Below, one piece after another: positions 16,668 to 37,132 of a stretch of 64,000 nucleotides of DNA. The stretch lies in the NCBI RefSeq assembly GCF_003752595.1, contig NZ_RKIJ01000003.1:1-64000 (forward strand). The letters are read 5' to 3'. The notes below the pieces were generated by a model. The model made no database searches. It was not told the DNA's origin and saw nothing but the letters and a program-made list of their open reading frames with translations. A program made the position numbers and the translations under genes. This DNA is from Cellulomonas sp. PhB143 (GTDB taxonomy: Bacteria; Actinomycetota; Actinomycetes; Actinomycetales; Cellulomonadaceae). Within the stretch, counting starts at the first letter, position 1. Every line of letters begins with the position of its first letter.

Positions 16668-17705
<1,038 letters not shown>

Positions 17706-17709
<4 letters not shown>

Positions 17710-18938
17710 CGGGTCCTCCGAGGGGTGGGTCGCGGTGTGCGGTCGGTGAGGCGGCGGGGGTCGACGGCGGCGACGGAGCCCGGGAGCGCGCCACCCGTGA
17801 GCGTCGCCACGACGGCGTCGCCCGTGATCGGCGCGAGCAGCACGCCGTTGCGGTGGTGGCCGGTCGCGAGCACGAGTCCCGGGACGCCGGACGCGCCGAC
17901 GAACGGCAGGTTGTCCGGTGTCGCGGGCCTCGCCCGCGGGGTGATCTCGACGAGCGCGAGCTCGTCGACGGCGGGCAGCAGCGCCCGCGCGTCGCGCAGC
18001 AGGGCGAAGACGGCACCGGCCTCGGCGCGGCGGTCGTCCGGCTTCTCCTCGCTCGACGCGCCGATCACCACCTCGCGGCGCGGAGCCCCGGTGCCCGGGT
18101 CGGTCCCGGGCGCGCGCGGCACGACGTACACGGCCCTGCTCTGGACGCGGCCGCGCACCACGTGGTCGAGGTCGAACCACGCGGGCGCGTCCAGGCGCAG
18201 CGTGAGCCCCTTGACCGGGCGGGTCGGCGCGTCGACCGGCAGCCCCGCGAGCAGCGACGACGACCGCTCGCCCGCCGCGAGCACCACGGTCCCGGCCTGG
18301 TGCTCCTCGCCCCGGTCGTCGACGACGCCGGTGACCCGGACGCCGTCGTCGGTCGTGCCGGTCCCGACGAGCAGCCGCGCGACCCGGCGGGGGAGGATGC
18401 CGCACCCGGGCGTGCCGACCACCGCCCGGCGCAGGGCGCGGTGGGCGGCGCGGGGGTCGACCTGGTGGTCGTCCGCGGCCCAGGACGCCCCGGCGACGGA
18501 GCCGACGAGGGGCGAGCGGCGGCGCGCCTGCGCCGCGGTGAGCTCGGTGATCGCCATGCCCCACCGCTGCTGCGTCCGGGCGAGGCGGCGCGACTCGGCG
18601 AGGTCGTCGGCGTCGTAGGCGAGCGTCATCGTGCCCGTGGCGCGCAGCCCGACGTCGGTCCCGGAGGCGTCCTCGAGCTCCTGGGCGAAGCGCGGCCACC
18701 GCCGCGCGGAGTCGACGTTCATGCGGGCGAGGCGGTCCTCGCCGTACTCGGCCTCGGTGACGGCGGCGAGCATTCCGGCGGCGGCCCAGGTCGCGCCGTC
18801 GCCGGGGGACGCGTCGAGGACCGAGACGGTCAGGCCGGCGCGGGTGGCGCGCCACGCCACGGCGAGGCCGATGATCCCGGCGCCGACGACGAGGACGTCG
18901 GGCGGGCCCGTGGGTGGGCCGGGTGCGGCACTGTTCAT
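17706..18938 (-). CDS. thiO: Glycine oxidase
   Basis: A 410-residue FAD-dependent DAAO-fold enzyme that oxidises glycine to the imine used for thiazole synthesis. The FAD-binding motif VVGAGIIGLAVAWRATRAG is at residues about 17-35, and the C-terminal TGHHRNGVLLAP segment is typical. I chose the ATG at 18938 because the ribosome site AAGGGAG lies directly before it, at the 3' edge of the TPP riboswitch. The apparent upstream Met at 18959 lies inside the aptamer. First gene of thiO-thiS-thiG. Confidence 0.93.
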
Positions 18939-18941
18939 GGG

Positions 18942-19025
18942 TGCTCCCTTCGCCGGCATGACCCGGATCAGGTTCGACGGTCGGCGGATCTCGCCCTCTC
19001 AGCCCCGGCGGGGCTCCCGTGCACG
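18942..19025 (-). ncRNA. TPP riboswitch (THI element) ahead of thiO
   Basis: The conserved aptamer parts occur in order on the minus strand: ACGGGAGCCCC, the GGGGCTGAGAGGG core, GACCGTCGAACCTGATC and CCGGGTCATGCCGGCGAAGG. GTGC at the 5' end can pair with GCAC at the 3' end to close the outer helix. The ribosome-binding site of thiO is part of the final strand, three to eight bases before the ATG. This suggests that TPP binding blocks translation rather than only transcription. TPP control of thiamine genes is well established; the translational mode is an inference. Confidence 0.95.
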
Positions 19026-19076
19026 GCCAGGCTAGCGCGCCGGGCCGCGCGCGGCGCCCGGGCGCCCGCGCGTCGG

Positions 19077-30470: not shown

Positions 30471-30538
30471 CCCGCCGAGACGTCGAACTCCGCCCCTGAT
30501 CCCGCCGGATCAGGGGCGGAATTCGACGTCTCGGCGGG
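30471..30538. repeat. Intact dispersed palindromic element, probable bidirectional terminator
   Basis: Arms 30471-30502 and 30507-30538 pair at 31 of 32 positions around a CGCC loop. It lies between two convergent genes and can fold in both transcripts. A disrupted copy lies at 99-130. The stop codon and last eight codons of cysG are inside the right arm. Confidence 0.9.
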
Positions 30539-31808
30539 TGCCGGTGCGGGTGCCGGGCCAGGCGGGGGAGAGGCGGACGACGTCGCCCACCACCACGACC
30601 GCGGGCGCGCGCACCCCGGCGCCGGACGCCACCGCGGCGATCGTCGCGAGCGTGCCGACGGTGGTGCGCTGGCGCGGGCCGTAGCCGTCCTCGACCACCG
30701 CGACCGGCGTCTCGGGGGCCCGTCCCGCCGCGACGAGCGCGTCCGCGCTCTCGGCCAGACGCGAGACGCCCATGAGCAGGACGACGGTGTGGTCGCTCGC
30801 GGGCGGCACGCGGCCGACGTCCTCGTGCCCCGTCAGGACGGTGAACCCGCGGGAGAGCCCGCGGTGGGTGACGGGGATGCCGGCCGCGGCGGGCACGGAC
30901 ACCGCGCTGGTCACGCCGGGCACGACCTCGACCTCGATCCCGTGGGCCCGGCAGGCGGCGAGCTCCTCGCCGCCGCGGCCGAACACGTACGGGTCGCCGC
31001 CCTTGAGCCGCACGACGTCGCGGCCCGCCAGCGCGTGCCGCACGAGCGTCGCGTCGATCTCCTCCTGCGGGACGGGGTGGTGCCCGGGCCGCTTGCCGAC
31101 GTCCACCACGAGGACGTCGTCGGCGAGGTCGGCGAGCAGTCCGCGGGGCGCGAGGCGGTCGACGACGACGACGTCGGCCCGGGCGATCAGCGCCCGGCCG
31201 CGGGCCGTGACGAGCCCGTCCGCCCCGGGACCGCCGCCGACGAGCGCGACGCGACCGGGCCCGGTCCGTGCGACGGGGCGCACCGCGCGCAGGGGCAGCT
31301 CCCCCGAGGCGAGCTGCGCGGCGACCGCGTCGCGGACGCGGCGCGCCCGGCCGGGGTCGCGCCCGCCGTTGACCGCGACCACGACCTCGGCCGGCCCGGA
31401 GGGCTCGTCGAGCGCGACCCGGGCCACCGCCGGGACCCACGCCGTCCCGCCGCCGTCCGCGCCCGCGTCGCCCGCCGTGACGCAGAAGGTCCGCCCGGCC
31501 TCGGCGTCGGCGGCCACGCGCGCGTCGACGGCCGGGTCCCCCGTCGCGGTGTGCACGAGCCAGGCGTCCGCGAGGTCGCCGCCGGCGTACGCGCGGGGCA
31601 GGTGGTCGGCGTCCGCGACCCCGGCGAGCAGGTCCGCCATCTGCGGGCAGACCTGCGGGGCGACGACCGTGACGAGGGCCCCGGCCTCGAGGAGCCCGCG
31701 GGCCCTGCGCGCGGCGACCGGTCCGCCCCCGACGACCACCACCGCCCGGCCCCGCACGCGCAGCCCCAGCGGGTACAGGGCGCCCGCGCCCGGGTCCGTC
31801 GTGCTCAT
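30510..31808 (-). CDS. cysG: Siroheme synthase (precorrin-2 dehydrogenase / uroporphyrin-III methyltransferase)
   Basis: A 432-residue CysG-like protein that makes siroheme for the sulfite reductase in the same operon. Residues about 10-150 are the NAD-binding dehydrogenase/ferrochelatase part (VVVVGGGPVAARRARGLLEAGA). Residues about 185-420 are the SAM-dependent methyltransferase with VALVGGGPG, VVRLKGGDPYVFGRGGEE and PVTHRGLSRGF. The last residues (RRDVEFRP) are encoded by the palindromic repeat and look like an acquired tail. Last gene of the sir-cysH-cysD-cysN-cysG operon, 16 bases after cysN. Confidence 0.93.
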   Translation of the reverse strand: MSTTDPGAGALYPLGLRVRGRAVVVVGGGPVAARRARGLLEAGALVTVVAPQVCPQMADLLAGVADADHLPRAYAGGDLADAWLVHTATGDPAVDARVAADAEAGRTFCVTAGDAGADGGGTAWVPAVARVALDEPSGPAEVVVAVNGGRDPGRARRVRDAVAAQLASGELPLRAVRPVARTGPGRVALVGGGPGADGLVTARGRALIARADVVVVDRLAPRGLLADLADDVLVVDVGKRPGHHPVPQEEIDATLVRHALAGRDVVRLKGGDPYVFGRGGEELAACRAHGIEVEVVPGVTSAVSVPAAAGIPVTHRGLSRGFTVLTGHEDVGRVPPASDHTVVLLMGVSRLAESADALVAAGRAPETPVAVVEDGYGPRQRTTVGTLATIAAVASGAGVRAPAVVVVGDVVRLSPAWPGTRTGTRRDVEFRP

Positions 31809-31824: not shown

Positions 31825-33195
31825 TCAGATCGAGTACTGCGCGGGCCGGGACGCCGGGCGCCGGACGGCGGCGAGCGCGTCGCCGACCATCCCCGCCGCG
31901 AGCGTGCCGCCGTCGTGGGCGTCGATCAGCAGGAACGCGCCGGTGCGGCGCGCCACCACGTACTCCTCGGCCGCGACGGGGGACGCGAGCCGCAGGCGGA
32001 CACGGCCGATGTCGTTGAGCGCCAGCGCCTCGGCCGGGACCAGCTCGGCCGCGTCGAGGTCCAGGCGCCCGACGACGTCGCGCACCACGGCCTTGACCGT
32101 GCGGGTCGTGTGCTTGAGCAGCAACCGCGCGCCCGGGCGCAGCGGCGCGTCCCCGAGCCACGCGACCATGCCCTCGACGTCCTGCGTGACCTCGGGGGCG
32201 TCGTCGGCCGCGGCGAGCAGGTCCCCGCGGGAGACGTCGACGTCGTCGGCCAGCCGGAGGGTCACGGACTGCGGGGCGAAGGCCTCGTCCAGCGGCCCGT
32301 CGGCCGTGTCGATGCCGGCCACGGTGGTCCGGGTCCCGGACGGGAGCACGACGACGCGGTCGCCGACCCGCACGACCCCGGAGGCGACCTGCCCGGCGTA
32401 GCCGCGGTAGTCGCGGTACTCGTCCGAGACCGCCGCGCCCTGCGGGCGGATGGCGAGCTGGACCGGGAACCGGAAGGACTCGACGTCCGGGTCGTCGGCG
32501 GTCGGCAGGCCCTCGAGGAGCTCGAGGAGCGTCGGCCCGTCGTACCAGGGCGTGCGGGTGCTGCGGTCCACGACGTTGTCGCCCACCAGCGCGGAGACGG
32601 GCAGCGGGTGCACGTCCGCGACGCCGAGCGACGCCGCGGTCGCCCGGATCTCGGCCGCGAGCTCCTCGTAGCGCTCGCGCGAGTAGTCGACGAGGTCGAT
32701 CTTGTTGACGGCCACGACGATGTGCGGCACGCGCAGGAGGCTCGCGACGGCCAGGTGGCGGCGCGTCTGCTCGAGCAGCCCCTTGCGGGCGTCGATGAGC
32801 AGGACCAGGGCGTCGGCCGTGGACGCGCCGGTGACCGTGTTGCGGGTGTACTGCACGTGGCCGGGGCAGTCCGCGAGGATGAACGAGCGGCGGGCCGTGG
32901 CGAAGTACCGGTAGGCGACGTCGATCGTGATGCCCTGCTCGCGCTCCGAGCGCAGCCCGTCCGTGAGCAGCGCGAGGTCCGCGGTCTGCAGGCCGCGGTC
33001 GCGCGAGACCCGCTCGACGGCCTCGATCTGGTCGGCGAGGACGGACTTGGAGTCGAACAGCAGGCGGCCGACGAGGGTCGACTTGCCGTCGTCGACCGAG
33101 CCCGCGGTCGCCAGGCGCAGCAGGGTGGACGCCGAGCTCGGGAGCACGGCGTCGTCGGTGGTGCTCGCGGCGGGGCTCGTGGTCTGGGCGCTCAT
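31825..33195 (-). CDS. cysN: Sulfate adenylyltransferase subunit 1 (GTPase)
   Basis: A 456-residue EF-Tu-like GTPase that couples GTP hydrolysis to APS formation by CysD. G1 is TAGSVDDGKSTLVGRLL, G3 is DCPGHVQYTRN, G4 is NKIDLVDYS, and beta-barrel domains follow. It ends without an APS-kinase (CysC) domain, which fits direct APS reduction in this operon. Its ATG directly abuts the cysD stop with no gap. Confidence 0.95.
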   Translation of the reverse strand: MSAQTTSPAASTTDDAVLPSSASTLLRLATAGSVDDGKSTLVGRLLFDSKSVLADQIEAVERVSRDRGLQTADLALLTDGLRSEREQGITIDVAYRYFATARRSFILADCPGHVQYTRNTVTGASTADALVLLIDARKGLLEQTRRHLAVASLLRVPHIVVAVNKIDLVDYSRERYEELAAEIRATAASLGVADVHPLPVSALVGDNVVDRSTRTPWYDGPTLLELLEGLPTADDPDVESFRFPVQLAIRPQGAAVSDEYRDYRGYAGQVASGVVRVGDRVVVLPSGTRTTVAGIDTADGPLDEAFAPQSVTLRLADDVDVSRGDLLAAADDAPEVTQDVEGMVAWLGDAPLRPGARLLLKHTTRTVKAVVRDVVGRLDLDAAELVPAEALALNDIGRVRLRLASPVAAEEYVVARRTGAFLLIDAHDGGTLAAGMVGDALAAVRRPASRPAQYSI

Positions 33196-34143
33196 CTAGA
33201 AGTACCCCTCCTTCTTGCGGTCTTCCATGGCGGCCTCGGAGATGCGGTCGTCGGCGCGGGTCGCGCCCCGCTCGGTGATGCGGGTGGCGGCGACCTCGGC
33301 GATCACGGCCTGGACGTCCGTCGCGGCGGACTCGACGGCCCCCGTGCAGGACATGTCCCCGACCGTGCGGTAGCGCACGAGGCGCGTGTGCGGGCGCTCG
33401 CCGTCGCGCGGGCGCGAGTGCGGCCCGACGGCGAGGAGCATCCCGTCGCGCTCGAAGACCTCGCGCTCGCTCGCGTAGTACAGGGACGGGAGCGCGATGC
33501 GCTCGCGGGCGATGTACTGCCAGACGTCGAGCTCGGTCCAGTTGCTGATCGGGAAGACGCGCACGTGCTCGCCCGGGCGGTGGCGACCGTTGTACAGGTT
33601 CCACAGCTCGGGCCGCTGGTTGCGCGGGTCCCACTGGCCGAACTCGTCGCGCAGCGAGAAGACGCGCTCCTTGGCGCGCGCCTTCTCCTCGTCGCGCCGG
33701 CCCCCGCCGAAGACGGCGTCGAACCGGTGGTCGTTGATCGCGTCGAGCAGCGGCTGCGTCTGCAGCGGGTTGCGGGTGCCGTCCGGGCGCTCGCGCAGCC
33801 GGCCGTCGTCGATGTAGTCCTGCACGCTCGCGACCTCCAGGCGCAGGCGCAGCCGGTCCGCCGTGGCGTCGCGGAAGGCGAGGACCTCGGGGAAGTTGTG
33901 CCCCGTGTCCACGTGCAGCACCGGGAAGGGCACCGGCGACGGCCAGAACGCCTTCGTCGCGAGGTGCAGCATCACGACGGAGTCCTTGCCGCCGCTGAAC
34001 AGCAGCACGGGTCGCTCGAACTCGCTCGCGACCTCGCGGAAGATGTGGATCGCCTCGCTCTCGAGCGCGTCGAGCTGCGAGAGGCGGTGCCGGGTCTGGT
34101 CGGCCGGCGCGGTCGCCGGGGCTGTGCTCAGGTCGGTCGTCAT
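33196..34143 (-). CDS. cysD: Sulfate adenylyltransferase subunit 2
   Basis: A 315-residue PAPS-reductase-fold enzyme that adenylates sulfate with ATP. The pyrophosphate loop LLFSGGKDSVVMLHL is near residue 50, and VLHVDTGHNFPEV, FGGGRRDEEKARAKERVFSLRD and the end MEDRKKEGYF are hallmark CysD segments. Length is normal. The start overlaps the cysH stop (ATGA). It acts in complex with CysN. Confidence 0.96.
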   Translation of the reverse strand: MTTDLSTAPATAPADQTRHRLSQLDALESEAIHIFREVASEFERPVLLFSGGKDSVVMLHLATKAFWPSPVPFPVLHVDTGHNFPEVLAFRDATADRLRLRLEVASVQDYIDDGRLRERPDGTRNPLQTQPLLDAINDHRFDAVFGGGRRDEEKARAKERVFSLRDEFGQWDPRNQRPELWNLYNGRHRPGEHVRVFPISNWTELDVWQYIARERIALPSLYYASEREVFERDGMLLAVGPHSRPRDGERPHTRLVRYRTVGDMSCTGAVESAATDVQAVIAEVAATRITERGATRADDRISEAAMEDRKKEGYF

Positions 34144-34982
34144 ACGTGGAGCCCGCATTCCGTCTTGTCGAGGCCGGCCCAGCGGCCGGACCGGGGGTCG
34201 TCGCCGGGGGCGACGCGCTTGGTGCAGGGGGCGCAGCCGATCGACGGGTAGCCGTCGTTCAGGAGCGGGTTGAGCGTCACCTGGTGCGTGGTGGCGTACG
34301 CGAGGACGTCGTCGAAGGACCACGCGGCGAGGGGGTTGATCTTGACCAGGCCGTTCTTCTCGTCCCAGGTGACCAGGGGCGTGCGGGCGCGGGTCGGCGC
34401 CTCGTCCCGGCGCACGCCGGTGACCCACACCTCGTAGCCGGCGAGCGTGCGCTGCAGCGGCTCGACCTTGCGCAGCCGGCAGCACAGCCCCGGGTCGCGG
34501 GCGAAGAGGTCCTTGCCGTGCGCGGCGTCCTGCTCCGCGACGGTCGCCGAGGGCAGCACGTCGACGACGGTCACGTCGAGCGACTGCGCGACGGCGTCGC
34601 GGGTCCCGTAGGTCTCGGCGAAGTGGTAGCCGGTGTCCAGGAACAGCACGTCCACCCAGGGTGCGGCCCGGGCCACGAGGTGGGGGAGCACGGCGTCGGC
34701 CATGGAGCAGGCGACGGCGACCCGGGTGCCGAACTCGCGCTCGGCCCACGCCACGACCTGCTCGGCGCTCGCCTCGTCGTCCGCGCCCGGGCCCGAGCCG
34801 TGCAGCTCGGCCCTGCCGCGCTCGACGATCTCGCGCAGCTGTGCCGCGTCGCGCCGCGGCGGGGCCGCCGCGCGCCGCCGCTGGTCGGCGGCGCGCGACT
34901 CCTCGCGCTCGGCCGCCCTGGCCTGGGCCGCAGCCCGCAGCGCCGCCAGCGGGCCGGTGCCGGGGCTCAGGTCCGCGCTCAC
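34140..34982 (-). CDS. cysH: Adenylyl-sulfate (APS) reductase
   Basis: A 280-residue reductase that turns APS into sulfite and AMP with thioredoxin. The two [4Fe-4S] cysteine pairs are present (GLCCRLRKVEPL and GCAPCTKR), which marks it as an APS rather than a PAPS reductase. The catalytic cysteine is in the C-terminal KTECGLH. The N-terminal 45 residues are an Ala/Arg-rich extension. The GTG at 34982 overlaps the sulfite reductase stop. The lack of cysC in the operon agrees with APS as the substrate. Confidence 0.94.
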   Translation of the reverse strand: MSADLSPGTGPLAALRAAAQARAAEREESRAADQRRRAAAPPRRDAAQLREIVERGRAELHGSGPGADDEASAEQVVAWAEREFGTRVAVACSMADAVLPHLVARAAPWVDVLFLDTGYHFAETYGTRDAVAQSLDVTVVDVLPSATVAEQDAAHGKDLFARDPGLCCRLRKVEPLQRTLAGYEVWVTGVRRDEAPTRARTPLVTWDEKNGLVKINPLAAWSFDDVLAYATTHQVTLNPLLNDGYPSIGCAPCTKRVAPGDDPRSGRWAGLDKTECGLHV

Positions 34983-36712
34983 TGCAGCGCCTCCTCGTCG
35001 GCCCGGTGCGCCCAGCGGGCGAAGGTCTCGTCCGGCTCGTGCTGTGCGTCGTAGGCGCGCACGAGGCGCTCCACGTAGTCGGTGACCTCGCTGGCCGGGA
35101 CCTTGAGCCCGCGCACGGTGCGGCCCAGGCCGCCCTCCTCGCGCCCCTCGCCGACGAGACCGCCGCCGAGGTGGACCTGGAAGCCCGGGACCTGCTCGCC
35201 GTCGACCGTGATGATCTGGCCCTTGAGCCCGATGTCCGCGGTCTGGATGCGGGCGCAGGAGTTGGGGCAGCCGTTGACGTTGAGCGCGATCGGGCGGTCG
35301 ATGCGCTGCGTGACGTCCCCGACGCGCTCCTCGAGCTCGGTGATGACGCGCGCCGCGGTGTCCTTCGTGTCGACGATCGCCAGCTTGCAGAACTCGATGC
35401 CCGTGCACGCGATCGTCGAGCGGCGGAAGAGGCTCGGCCGCGCGGTCAGGCCGAGGGGCTCGAGGCCCGCGACCAGCTCCTCGACCCGGTCGGCCGGGAC
35501 GCCGAGGATCACGACCTTCTGGTGCGCGGTCAGCCGTGCGGACTCCGCGCCGACCCGCTCGACCAGCTCCGCCAGCCCGGTGAGCGTGCCGCCGCCCACG
35601 CGCCCGACGACGGGCGCCGCGCCGACGTAGCAGCGGCCGTCCTTCTGCTCGTGGACGCCCACGTGGTCCCCGGGGCGGGTCGCGGGCGCCGGCGGTGGGC
35701 CGTCGGGCAGGGCGTACCCGAGGTACTCCTGCTCGAGCACCTCGCGGAACCTCTCGGTGCCCCAGTCGGCGAGGAGGAACTTCAGGCGCGCCTTGTTGCG
35801 CAGGCGCCGGTACCCGTAGTCGCGGAAGATCCGGATCACGCCGTGCCAGACGTCGGCCGCGCGCTCCTCGGAGACGAACGCGCCGAGGCGCTCCCCGAGC
35901 CGCGGCGTCGTGGACAGCGCCCCGCCGACCCACAGGTCGTAGCCCGGGCCGAGCTCGGGGTGCACGACGCCGACCAGCGAGATGTCGTTGATCTCGTGGA
36001 CCACGTCCAGGCTGGGGTGGCCCGTGATGGCCGTCTTGAACTTGCGCGGCAGGTTCGCCAGGTCGGGGTCGCCGATGTAGCGGCGCTTGATCTCGGCGAT
36101 CACCGGGGTGGGGTCGATGATCTCGTCGGCGGCGACTCCCGCGACCGGGCTGCCGAGGAACCCGCGGGGGGAGTCGCCGCACGCGGTCGTGGTCTCGAGG
36201 CCGACGGTCTCGAGCCGGCGCCAGATCTCCGGCACGTCCTCGATCTCGATCCAGTGGTACTGGATGTTCTGGCGGTCGGTGATGTCGGCCGAGCCGCGCC
36301 CGAAGTCCTCGGAGATGCCACCGAGCACCCGCAGCGCCGCCGGGTCGAGCGCCTGGCCGTCGGTGCGCACCCGCAGCATGAAGTAGCGGTCCTCGAGCTC
36401 GTGCGGCTCGAGGGTGGCGGTGCGGCCGCCGTCGATCCCGGGCTTGCGCTGGGTGTACAGGCCCCACCAGCGGAACCGGCCGTGCAGGTCGTCGTCGGCG
36501 ATGGAGTCGAAGCCCTCGCGGGCGTAGACCGACTCGATGCGTTCGCGCACGCCCAGCGGCGCGGCCTCCTGCTTGAACTCCTCGTTGTGGTTGAGCGGCG
36601 CGGTGCCGTCGACCTTCCACTGGCCGTTCGGCCGCGCGGCGCGCGGGGGCCGGGCGGGGCGTGCGGGTGCGGTGGTGGTCGTGCCGGGCGTGGCGTCGGG
36701 TGGCGGCGTCAT
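34979..36712 (-). CDS. sir: Ferredoxin-type sulfite reductase
   Basis: A 577-residue siroheme and [4Fe-4S] enzyme that reduces sulfite to sulfide with six electrons. The cluster/siroheme ligands are in CTGIEFC and GCPNSC. Two ferredoxin-like half-domains and the arginine/lysine-rich anion site (TACGDSPRGFLG, RKFKTAITGH) are visible. It is of the NirA/SirA type common in actinobacteria. The start at 36712 follows GAGGAG at good spacing; an upstream in-frame Met at 36772 lies in the leader. First gene of the sulfate operon, about 135 bases after a Cys-rich leader peptide. Confidence 0.95.
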   Translation of the reverse strand: MTPPPDATPGTTTTAPARPARPPRAARPNGQWKVDGTAPLNHNEEFKQEAAPLGVRERIESVYAREGFDSIADDDLHGRFRWWGLYTQRKPGIDGGRTATLEPHELEDRYFMLRVRTDGQALDPAALRVLGGISEDFGRGSADITDRQNIQYHWIEIEDVPEIWRRLETVGLETTTACGDSPRGFLGSPVAGVAADEIIDPTPVIAEIKRRYIGDPDLANLPRKFKTAITGHPSLDVVHEINDISLVGVVHPELGPGYDLWVGGALSTTPRLGERLGAFVSEERAADVWHGVIRIFRDYGYRRLRNKARLKFLLADWGTERFREVLEQEYLGYALPDGPPPAPATRPGDHVGVHEQKDGRCYVGAAPVVGRVGGGTLTGLAELVERVGAESARLTAHQKVVILGVPADRVEELVAGLEPLGLTARPSLFRRSTIACTGIEFCKLAIVDTKDTAARVITELEERVGDVTQRIDRPIALNVNGCPNSCARIQTADIGLKGQIITVDGEQVPGFQVHLGGGLVGEGREEGGLGRTVRGLKVPASEVTDYVERLVRAYDAQHEPDETFARWAHRADEEALQ

Positions 36713-36811
36713 CGGGCTCCTCGAGGTGGGTCTCAAGGGCGCGCGTCGGCGGGCAGCGTTCTCGCGGTCCACGGGGGACGGGCGGCCGGCGTCGCGCGCC
36801 CGCTCGTCGGT

Positions 36812-36829
36812 GCGGCCCCGGGGGGCCGC
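36812..36829 (-). promoter_or_regulatory. GC hairpin after the Cys leader peptide
   Basis: GCGGCCCCCCGGGGCCGC (minus strand) has 8-base arms around CC. It lies 18 bases after the leader peptide stop and about 100 bases before sir. It could be part of an attenuator that responds to ribosome position. No T-tract follows, so a translational role is equally possible. Confidence 0.5.
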
Positions 36830-36847
36830 GGAGAGGTCAGGCGCGAG

Positions 36848-36886
36848 TCAACAACAGCGACAGCTGTTGTCCGGACACGTCGGCAT
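36848..36886 (-). CDS. Cys-rich leader peptide of the sulfate-assimilation operon
   Basis: A 12-codon reading frame MPTCPDNSCRCC, in which four of the twelve codons are TGT cysteine codons and two of them directly precede the stop. It lies at the head of the sir-cysHDN-cysG operon, with a -10-like TACCGT at 36909-36914 and a weak GAG ahead of the ATG. Short uORFs rich in Cys codons act as cysteine-responsive attenuators before sulfur genes in mycobacteria (established), and 'putative leader peptides' occur before cys operons in streptomycetes. The same role is inferred here: when Cys-tRNA is scarce, ribosomes stall and downstream genes are expressed. Too short for ordinary gene finders. Confidence 0.75.
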   Translation of the reverse strand: MPTCPDNSCRCC

Positions 36887-37132
36887 CTCGCGCGGCGCCG
36901 TGCGGGGCACGGTACGCAGCGCGGTTCCGGTCGTCCGAGCCGTGGGCATGCCAGAACGGTACAGGCACGTCTCGCGGGCCGGAAGACCCCGTCCGGATCC
37001 TGGGACAGCCGTCCGGTGCGTGGGCACCCGGGGGTGCCCGGCGCCGGGACGTGCGCGATCTCACGCCACGCGGTGCCCGCCCGGGGCGGCCGGAGGTGCT
37101 GACGCCGGTGTCAGCAAACTAGGGTGCGACGC
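36887..37132. other. Intergenic region between the cys leader and the membrane protein gene
   Basis: About 245 bases between divergent genes. It holds the candidate cys promoter (TACCGT, minus strand, 36909-36914, with a weak CGGACG 17 bases upstream). Near its right end are an imperfect 16-base palindrome CTGACGCCGGTGTCAG (37099-37114) and a -10-like TAGGGT (37120-37125) for the gene at 37133. I see no further gene. Confidence 0.55.

Follow-up and report, generated by a model that had tools for sequence, protein, structure and literature searches.

The sulfate-assimilation operon of Cellulomonas sp. PhB143 raises the question of whether a cysteine-rich reading frame in front of it senses cysteine, and through which RNA structure such sensing could reach the genes. 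In the 64,000-nt stretch of DNA analysed here (the window), the operon lies on the minus strand, as do all leader features described below. It comprises sir (34979..36712; sulfite/nitrite reductase family, Pfam NIR_SIR), with a Shine–Dalgarno (SD) sequence GAGGAG recognised by eye at 36717..36722, then cysH (34140..34982) and cysD (33196..34140), whose starts are approximate, and cysN (31825..33195), these three assigned with NCBIfam, and a cysG-like siroheme synthase gene (30510..31808) assigned by reading the sequence by eye. A preliminary description had proposed a 12-codon cysteine leader at 36886-36848 (ATG CCG ACG TGT CCG GAC AAC AGC TGT CGC TGT TGT TGA; peptide MPTCPDNSCRCC*), and this sequence, the GC hairpin 18 nt past its stop and sir-cysH-cysD-cysN downstream are present as it stated, the cysG-like gene being seen by eye.

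The extent given for the frame was wrong. The reading frame remains open 5′ of the claimed start, up to an ATG at 36949-36947 that stands 6 nt 3′ of a −10-like hexamer, TACCGT (36961-36956). Because relatives share such an upstream start and −10, the start of the 12-codon version was rejected. Translation most likely covers 33 codons plus TGA (36848..36949; MPTARTTGTALRTVPRTAPREMPTCPDNSCRCC*), with the shorter frame (36848..36886) as the C-terminal part. The four Cys codons in that part are all TGT (36877-36875, 36862-36860, 36856-36854, and 36853-36851). As the 33-codon frame adjoins TACCGT at 6 nt, the mRNA probably starts at the leader start codon, i.e. the frame would be leaderless. The window leader promoter has no clear or standard −35, and an activator may therefore act at 36981-36994 (minus strand), where the window carries the GGAC element and TTCC block that recur 5′ of the −10 in relatives. 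At the Rfam gathering score the leader has no match; the sole match in the window is a TPP riboswitch elsewhere (18928-19030, minus strand, 63.7 bits).

We compared the regions upstream of sir in the family that includes Isoptericola, Cellulosimicrobium, and Oerskovia. The gene is present in 160 of 221 family genomes, and upstream DNA was taken for 113 copies from 111 genomes, favouring genera other than g4; one region shorter than 700 nt was excluded from the strict-rule count, leaving 112. The strict rule asked for TANNNT 6–7 nt 5′ of an ATG or GTG, a length of 8–45 codons, and at least three Cys in the last 15. Of the 112 regions, 76 have such a frame before sir, and these come from 15 of 21 genera; each of five shuffles gave none, and the reverse strand gave 1/112. 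In other families the same rule gave 1 of 82 upstream sir regions (82 of the 86 available were used), and the rule relaxed to two Cys gave 5 of 86 (families f3, f12, and f13). Over the whole window, both strands included, its single match is the sir leader, and over 80 loci (1.78 Mb strand-bases) seven of the eight matches lie upstream of sir. Cys codons can arise by chance in high-GC DNA ahead of a gene, and shuffling does yield 5–9 hits per 112 regions if any ATG or GTG start with at least three Cys is accepted, but the real regions give 93/112 on this loose rule, and together with the strict-rule counts this makes a chance origin negligible.

The strict frame failed in 36 of the 112 regions, including all those of g2, g5, g15, g23, g24, and g25, although looser leaderless-type frames with Cys occur in g2 and g15. 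For the folding analyses below, a set of 76 leaders was used, defined by at least two tail Cys, a TANNNT spacing of 6–8 nt, and an identifiable sir start; it differs from the 76 strict regions, the equal size being a coincidence. Within the chosen 6–8 nt, the spacing was 7 nt in 66 leaders, 6 nt in eight, and 8 nt in two. Among the 37 regions beyond this set, at least 10 (g2, g3, g12, g15, and g18) carry a frame with Cys at leaderless distance.

In three genomes of the same genus the leaders read MTTARTIDPAAHLDARSMSACPDNSCRCC, MHTARNLDLTQRLAALCVMSTCPDNSCRCC, and MHTARTTIAPQRTLAPRGMSMCPDSSCRCC; the N-terminal half varies and the Cys block adjoining the stop is kept. Leaders of Isoptericola, Cellulosimicrobium, and Oerskovia include MTTAAHRLLVTTRHGMPACVRRSMRSCLCCCR, MTTAARTLLVTSRHGMPACAHTCLSCCR, and MTTAAHLLLVTARHESTACARNSFCCCC. 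In a large part of the family, then, sir is preceded by a Cys-rich short frame of the kind anticipated in the preliminary description, and the remaining codons vary. A family leader profile run against the window's own genome hit the sir leader at E 2.9e-4, with the runner-up at 0.52, and a plasmid search returned zero matches. A frame that constitutively tunes sir translation by re-initiation, with no cysteine sensing, could draw on the proposal that short leaders are general boosters of downstream translation (cited part of PMC4833913). It would leave unexplained why Cys is conserved, why UGU is chosen, and why the frame sits before cysteine-making genes, and we consider it very improbable.

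The preliminary description had also called the peptide unlike the mycobacterial ones, which is half right. In its favour, the window peptide fits no NCBIfam leader model: the window leader and three relatives (0/4) gave no NCBIfam leader match at E up to 10, another scan gave 0/5 family leaders matching NF042934 or NF042936, and a Pfam scan of family leaders returned no match. On the other side, relatives carry the motif MTTAA..LLVT.RH....C..CCR, which by eye resembles the LV.RRHVD..R..S..C leaders that precede sir in actinobacteria of other families, and a leaderless start is also a property of the mycobacterial Cys leaders (cited part of PMC4633059). Outside the family, an R(R/L)H-type leader, mostly RRHVD, stands before sir in 32 frames (86 regions, 16 families), with Cys about eight residues past the motif. 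Four such peptides were scanned and all match NF042934 or NF042936, three of them above cut-off: against NF042936 (Ms4527A; cut-off 45), one of the two from family f22 passes with 51.9 bits and the other falls short with 43.3 bits, and those from f37 and f35 exceed the NF042934 cut-off. We take f22 to be mycobacterial and f37 Streptomyces-like. Ms4527A presumably takes its name from the sulfite reductase gene of M. smegmatis, which would put the window leader in the same position as a mycobacterial one. The window leader is a divergent relative of the actinobacterial Cys leaders NF042934 (cis_reg_atten ‘putative leader peptide’) and NF042936 (Ms4527A family Cys-rich leader peptide), sharing with them the place before sir and a UGU sensor, but lacking RRHVD. 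In relatives (e.g. L137, L086, and L150), the LLVT.RH codons also form an inverted repeat, CTCGTGAC..GTCACG(AG), of variable spacing, which is absent from the window genus. As a CRP/FNR-type DNA operator (GTGAC..GTCAC) this repeat is disfavoured by eye, since its spacing changes in steps of whole codons, a variation that an RNA loop could show.

Polycysteine leaderless short ORFs are known from mycobacteria (Shell 2015, cited part of PMC4633059; reportedly also Canestrari 2020). Like the window leader, which is probably of the same leaderless type, these have a Cys run by the stop and precede cysteine-metabolism operons; the window has the corresponding Cys run near the stop, the position upstream of cysteine-metabolism genes, and TANNNT at leaderless distance. 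It differs in a peptide that NCBIfam does not match and in an RNA helix of its own, described below. In M. smegmatis, Cys-rich leaderless uORFs show ribosome occupancy (Shell 2015, cited part of PMC4633059), and Cys-dependent control has been reported (cited part of PMC9031893).

A second feature of the family leaders is their choice of Cys codon. The final six sense codons were counted in 66 distinct leaders: 163 of 210 Cys codons there are TGT and 47 are TGC, and with one leader per genus (14 genera) the count is 36 TGT to 7 TGC. The sir coding sequences of 33 genomes contain 1 TGT versus 168 TGC (1/169), and the CDS-like ORFs of the window 4 versus 93. Cys codons farther upstream within the same leaders lean in the opposite direction (24 TGT versus 82 TGC), and the other two-fold NNY codons of these leaders end in T five times and in C 222 times, so leader codon use is not merely relaxed. 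In two genera, g9 (34 to 32) and g13 (4 to 4), TGT is not preferred to TGC as such, yet its share remains far above gene usage. Outside the family the sensor Cys is TGT in 30 of 32 leaders, whereas the sir genes of 44 outside loci (2 of 46 were skipped) have 6 TGT versus 226 TGC, and the 11 loci with such a leader 1 versus 58. As the leaders are kin, Fisher values are not independent, and more weight belongs to how widely the bias is spread across genera and families.

The window's own genome has one tRNA-Cys (GCA) according to a pattern search and ARAGORN, which amount to less than a full tRNA census, and the pattern search found no ACA form. With GCA as the only tRNA-Cys found, UGU would be wobble-read, and we infer that the codon preference is tied to this reading. 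The attenuator may be adjusted to the codon that Cys-tRNA(GCA) reads most slowly, so that a synonymous codon would make it a hypersensitive cysteine gauge. Whether the sensing codon itself is selected, with UGU kept while the surrounding peptide changes, seems to us evenly balanced. UGU might also have been chosen for base pairing, but the pairing figures do not favour this: the third-position U of tail Cys codons is paired at 0.58, versus 0.69 for third positions of other tail codons. Our literature search retrieved no report of a UGU preference in Cys leaders, though Canestrari 2020, which lay outside that search, may discuss it. Theory holds that synonymous codon choice affects attenuator sensitivity (cited part of PMC1183508), and the UGU bias makes this point testable by silent mutation, here for an amino acid with a single tRNA as far as found.

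We then consider the RNA through which the frame could act. Folding predicts a hairpin across the Cys codons, of segment 1:2 type (GACAACAGC-TGTC-GCTGTTGTT, 36850..36871), whose sequence is almost the same in four genomes of the genus. Immediately 3′ of the stop lies segment A (CGCGCC, 36840..36845), which in folding is able to pair with segment B (GGGCGCGCG, 36793..36801). The GC hairpin GCGGCCCC-CC-GGGGCCGC (36812..36829), 18 nt past the stop, forms the tip of the predicted A:B fold and has no U-run. Segment C (CGCGCGCCC, 36737..36745) is the partner of B in a conserved helix marked by compensatory changes.

For the covariation analysis, 20 of 27 selected leaders from five genera were aligned, those of g3, g19, and g22 appearing too divergent. 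B is near-invariant in these rows, and B:C (36801-36793 with 36745-36737) ranked first in a scan of all columns for helices. It is paired in 100% of cases. One of its pairs changes on both sides, from G-C to A-U, in a genome of the same genus, and its inner stem holds two further double-changing pairs. Helix and inner stem together are 96.0% paired, versus at most 68.8% for slid versions, and RNAalifold recovers the helix. Its covariation score was reached by 0/500 shuffles, although five of the eight pairs are invariant and the double-change count alone was matched by 11/500. A covariance model of B:C, R1, was trained on the rows from five genera, the window sequence included, and the 36.4 bits it gives for 36801-36737 are thus the score of a training sequence. 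At E<0.01 R1 matches 29 of 93 family loci outside its training set, among them both loci of g3 and one of two of g14, genera that contributed nothing to training, and 0 of 86 loci outside the family (best E 0.094). At E<0.05 it found no match in the g19, g22, and g4 leaders that possess the Cys frame, so the B:C helix is not universal in the family. The search for hits in the window, which also covered 42 of the 80 loci, gave a second R1 match at 17038-17098 (E 0.014), which looks like chance.

The opposing helix A:B is predicted by folding, but no covariation was found for it and only 72.5% of cells are paired, partly because the g9 rows are displaced by one column; one same-genus leader disrupts an A:B pair. 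Judged as a classical attenuator, the leader thus has covariation in support of B:C and none for A:B. In folding of the window leader, B pairs downstream at a probability of 0.10 with the ribosome stalled, compared to 0.96 with the ribosome at the stop. Simulated ribosome positions, run for 39 of the 76 leaders (about four distinct ones per genus at most), make B exchange A for partners farther downstream in 24 of the 39, compared to 75 of 234 shuffled ones. This predicted switch-like rate, about twice that of the shuffled sequences, is suggestive only of A/B/C switching.

As the effector, the GC hairpin pointed out in the preliminary description is not supported: no T run in the 76 leaders is longer than three, so the structure is not a classical terminator, and the covariation belongs to another helix, B:C. 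The GC hairpin was accordingly rejected as a terminator.

Two other ways in which the leader could control sir were weighed. In translation attenuation of the M. smegmatis style, stalled ribosomes would keep the RNA from folding over the ribosome-binding site of sir. Its best precedent is the M. smegmatis cysteine genes, cited as translation-attenuated (cited part of PMC13236596), and the lack of U-runs fits it. In the genus of the window, moreover, part of the sir SD is covered by a predicted short hairpin, CCTTGAG/CTCGAGG (36719..36738), which, by eye, shows compensatory changes in two same-genus leaders and is broken in a third. Constrained folding of the 76 leaders with the ribosome placed on the first late Cys, the last Cys, or the stop speaks against translation attenuation, as the mean unpaired SD fraction is 0.30, 0.31, and 0.33, and on stalling the SD becomes more open in 2/76 leaders and less open in 17/76. 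SD switching was not seen in these folds, and translation attenuation alone would leave control of the distal genes unexplained; on balance we find this route doubtful.

The other route is Rho-dependent attenuation, in which, with cysteine ample, the ribosome would leave at the stop and Rho would load on the C-rich leader, loading being blocked by a stalled ribosome or by the A:B fold. The 76 leader UTRs lack U-runs and have a mean C of 0.476 versus G of 0.281, compared to 0.381 and 0.317 in the 150 nt upstream of 82 regions from other families, and for the cys leaders of mycobacteria, where terminators are lacking, Rho was proposed by Seliverstov et al. for that reason (cited part of PMC1262725). 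Where the whole genome is high in GC, however, a C bias says little, the window UTR is less skewed (0.48 C versus 0.33 G), and Rho would not need the conserved B:C helix. We regard Rho-dependent attenuation as a possibility of slightly less than even weight.

Our preferred reading, a cysteine-responsive ribosome-stalling attenuator upstream of the sir operon, has a probability of about 85% as judged from the comparative data, and as a whole a cysteine-sensing leader is quite probably the best explanation. In this attenuator, transcription would start at the leader ATG, and as the transcript would begin there the ribosome would load on its 5′ end and translate 33 codons with four UGU Cys codons among the last nine. 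With ample Cys-tRNA, the ribosome would get to the stop and cover A, B:C would form, and operon expression would be low. With scarce Cys-tRNA, the ribosome would presumably stall at the UGU codons and leave A free to pair with B; A:B would preclude B:C, and sir-cysH-cysD-cysN-cysG would be expressed. Both the switch and its direction are suppositions drawn from the folds, and we hold only tentatively that A, B, and C operate in this way. For the read-out, we lean weakly towards premature termination, probably with the help of Rho, rather than towards a U-tract terminator or exposure of the SD.

The leaders of Seliverstov et al. 2005 (Mycobacterium, P. acnes, and B. longum) likewise have Cys runs by the stop and no conserved terminator, but while no conserved terminator-capable hairpin is given for Mycobacterium in the cited part of PMC1262725, the window family has a conserved helix that is not terminator-like. 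The uORFC-8-2 leader before cysS of Rhodobacterales shares tandem Cys codons and a structured RNA with the window, but has a 3′ U-run and mostly UGC in the cited part of PMC8632094, whereas the window family has no U-run and mostly UGU. As in E. coli trp/his-type attenuators (cited part of PMC1183508), ribosome position would choose between two helices, with the differences that no intrinsic terminator was found in the window leader and that its start is probably leaderless. At the level of sequence, our comparison shows a conserved leaderless-type Cys frame, a UGU bias, and the B:C helix in part of the family. The principle is established, its occurrence in this lineage is new and well supported, and the synonymous-codon signature is unexpected. 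Cysteine-responsive leader control, for which we found tests only in mycobacteria, would thereby be extended to the Isoptericola/Cellulosimicrobium/Oerskovia family, where the putative start is placed to the nucleotide, a helix is conserved, and defined segments are open to mutation, and the family leaders are cases that NCBIfam and Pfam models overlook.

The operon itself shows a mosaic pattern. The sir coding sequence (~35050-36700, minus strand) is 79–94% identical to two Isoptericola-type loci, compared to 62–90% to its own genus (100-nt steps), while the leader is of own-genus type, as are cysH and cysD by comparison with two of three same-genus genomes. From these identities, sir alone looks to have been replaced through recombination with the leader retained.

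Elsewhere in the window's own genome (L289 1489-1560, contig C4 near 22676) there is a canonical NF042934 leader ending TERRAVDLHRVASAMCR*, with TGT as its Cys codon, about 220 nt 5′ of an SDF-type symporter ORF (best NCBIfam match DctA/GltP, below cut-offs; own genome only). A leader of this type scores above cut-off in 4/4 genomes of the genus, and 6 of 14 control genomes match NF042934 at E up to 1, none above cut-off. Finally, the S. lividans metNIQ leader, assigned to methionine, ends ARCMCRRMCAF (Table 4 in the cited part of PMC8079986), and the Cys codons in it would also be compatible with sensing of cysteine.
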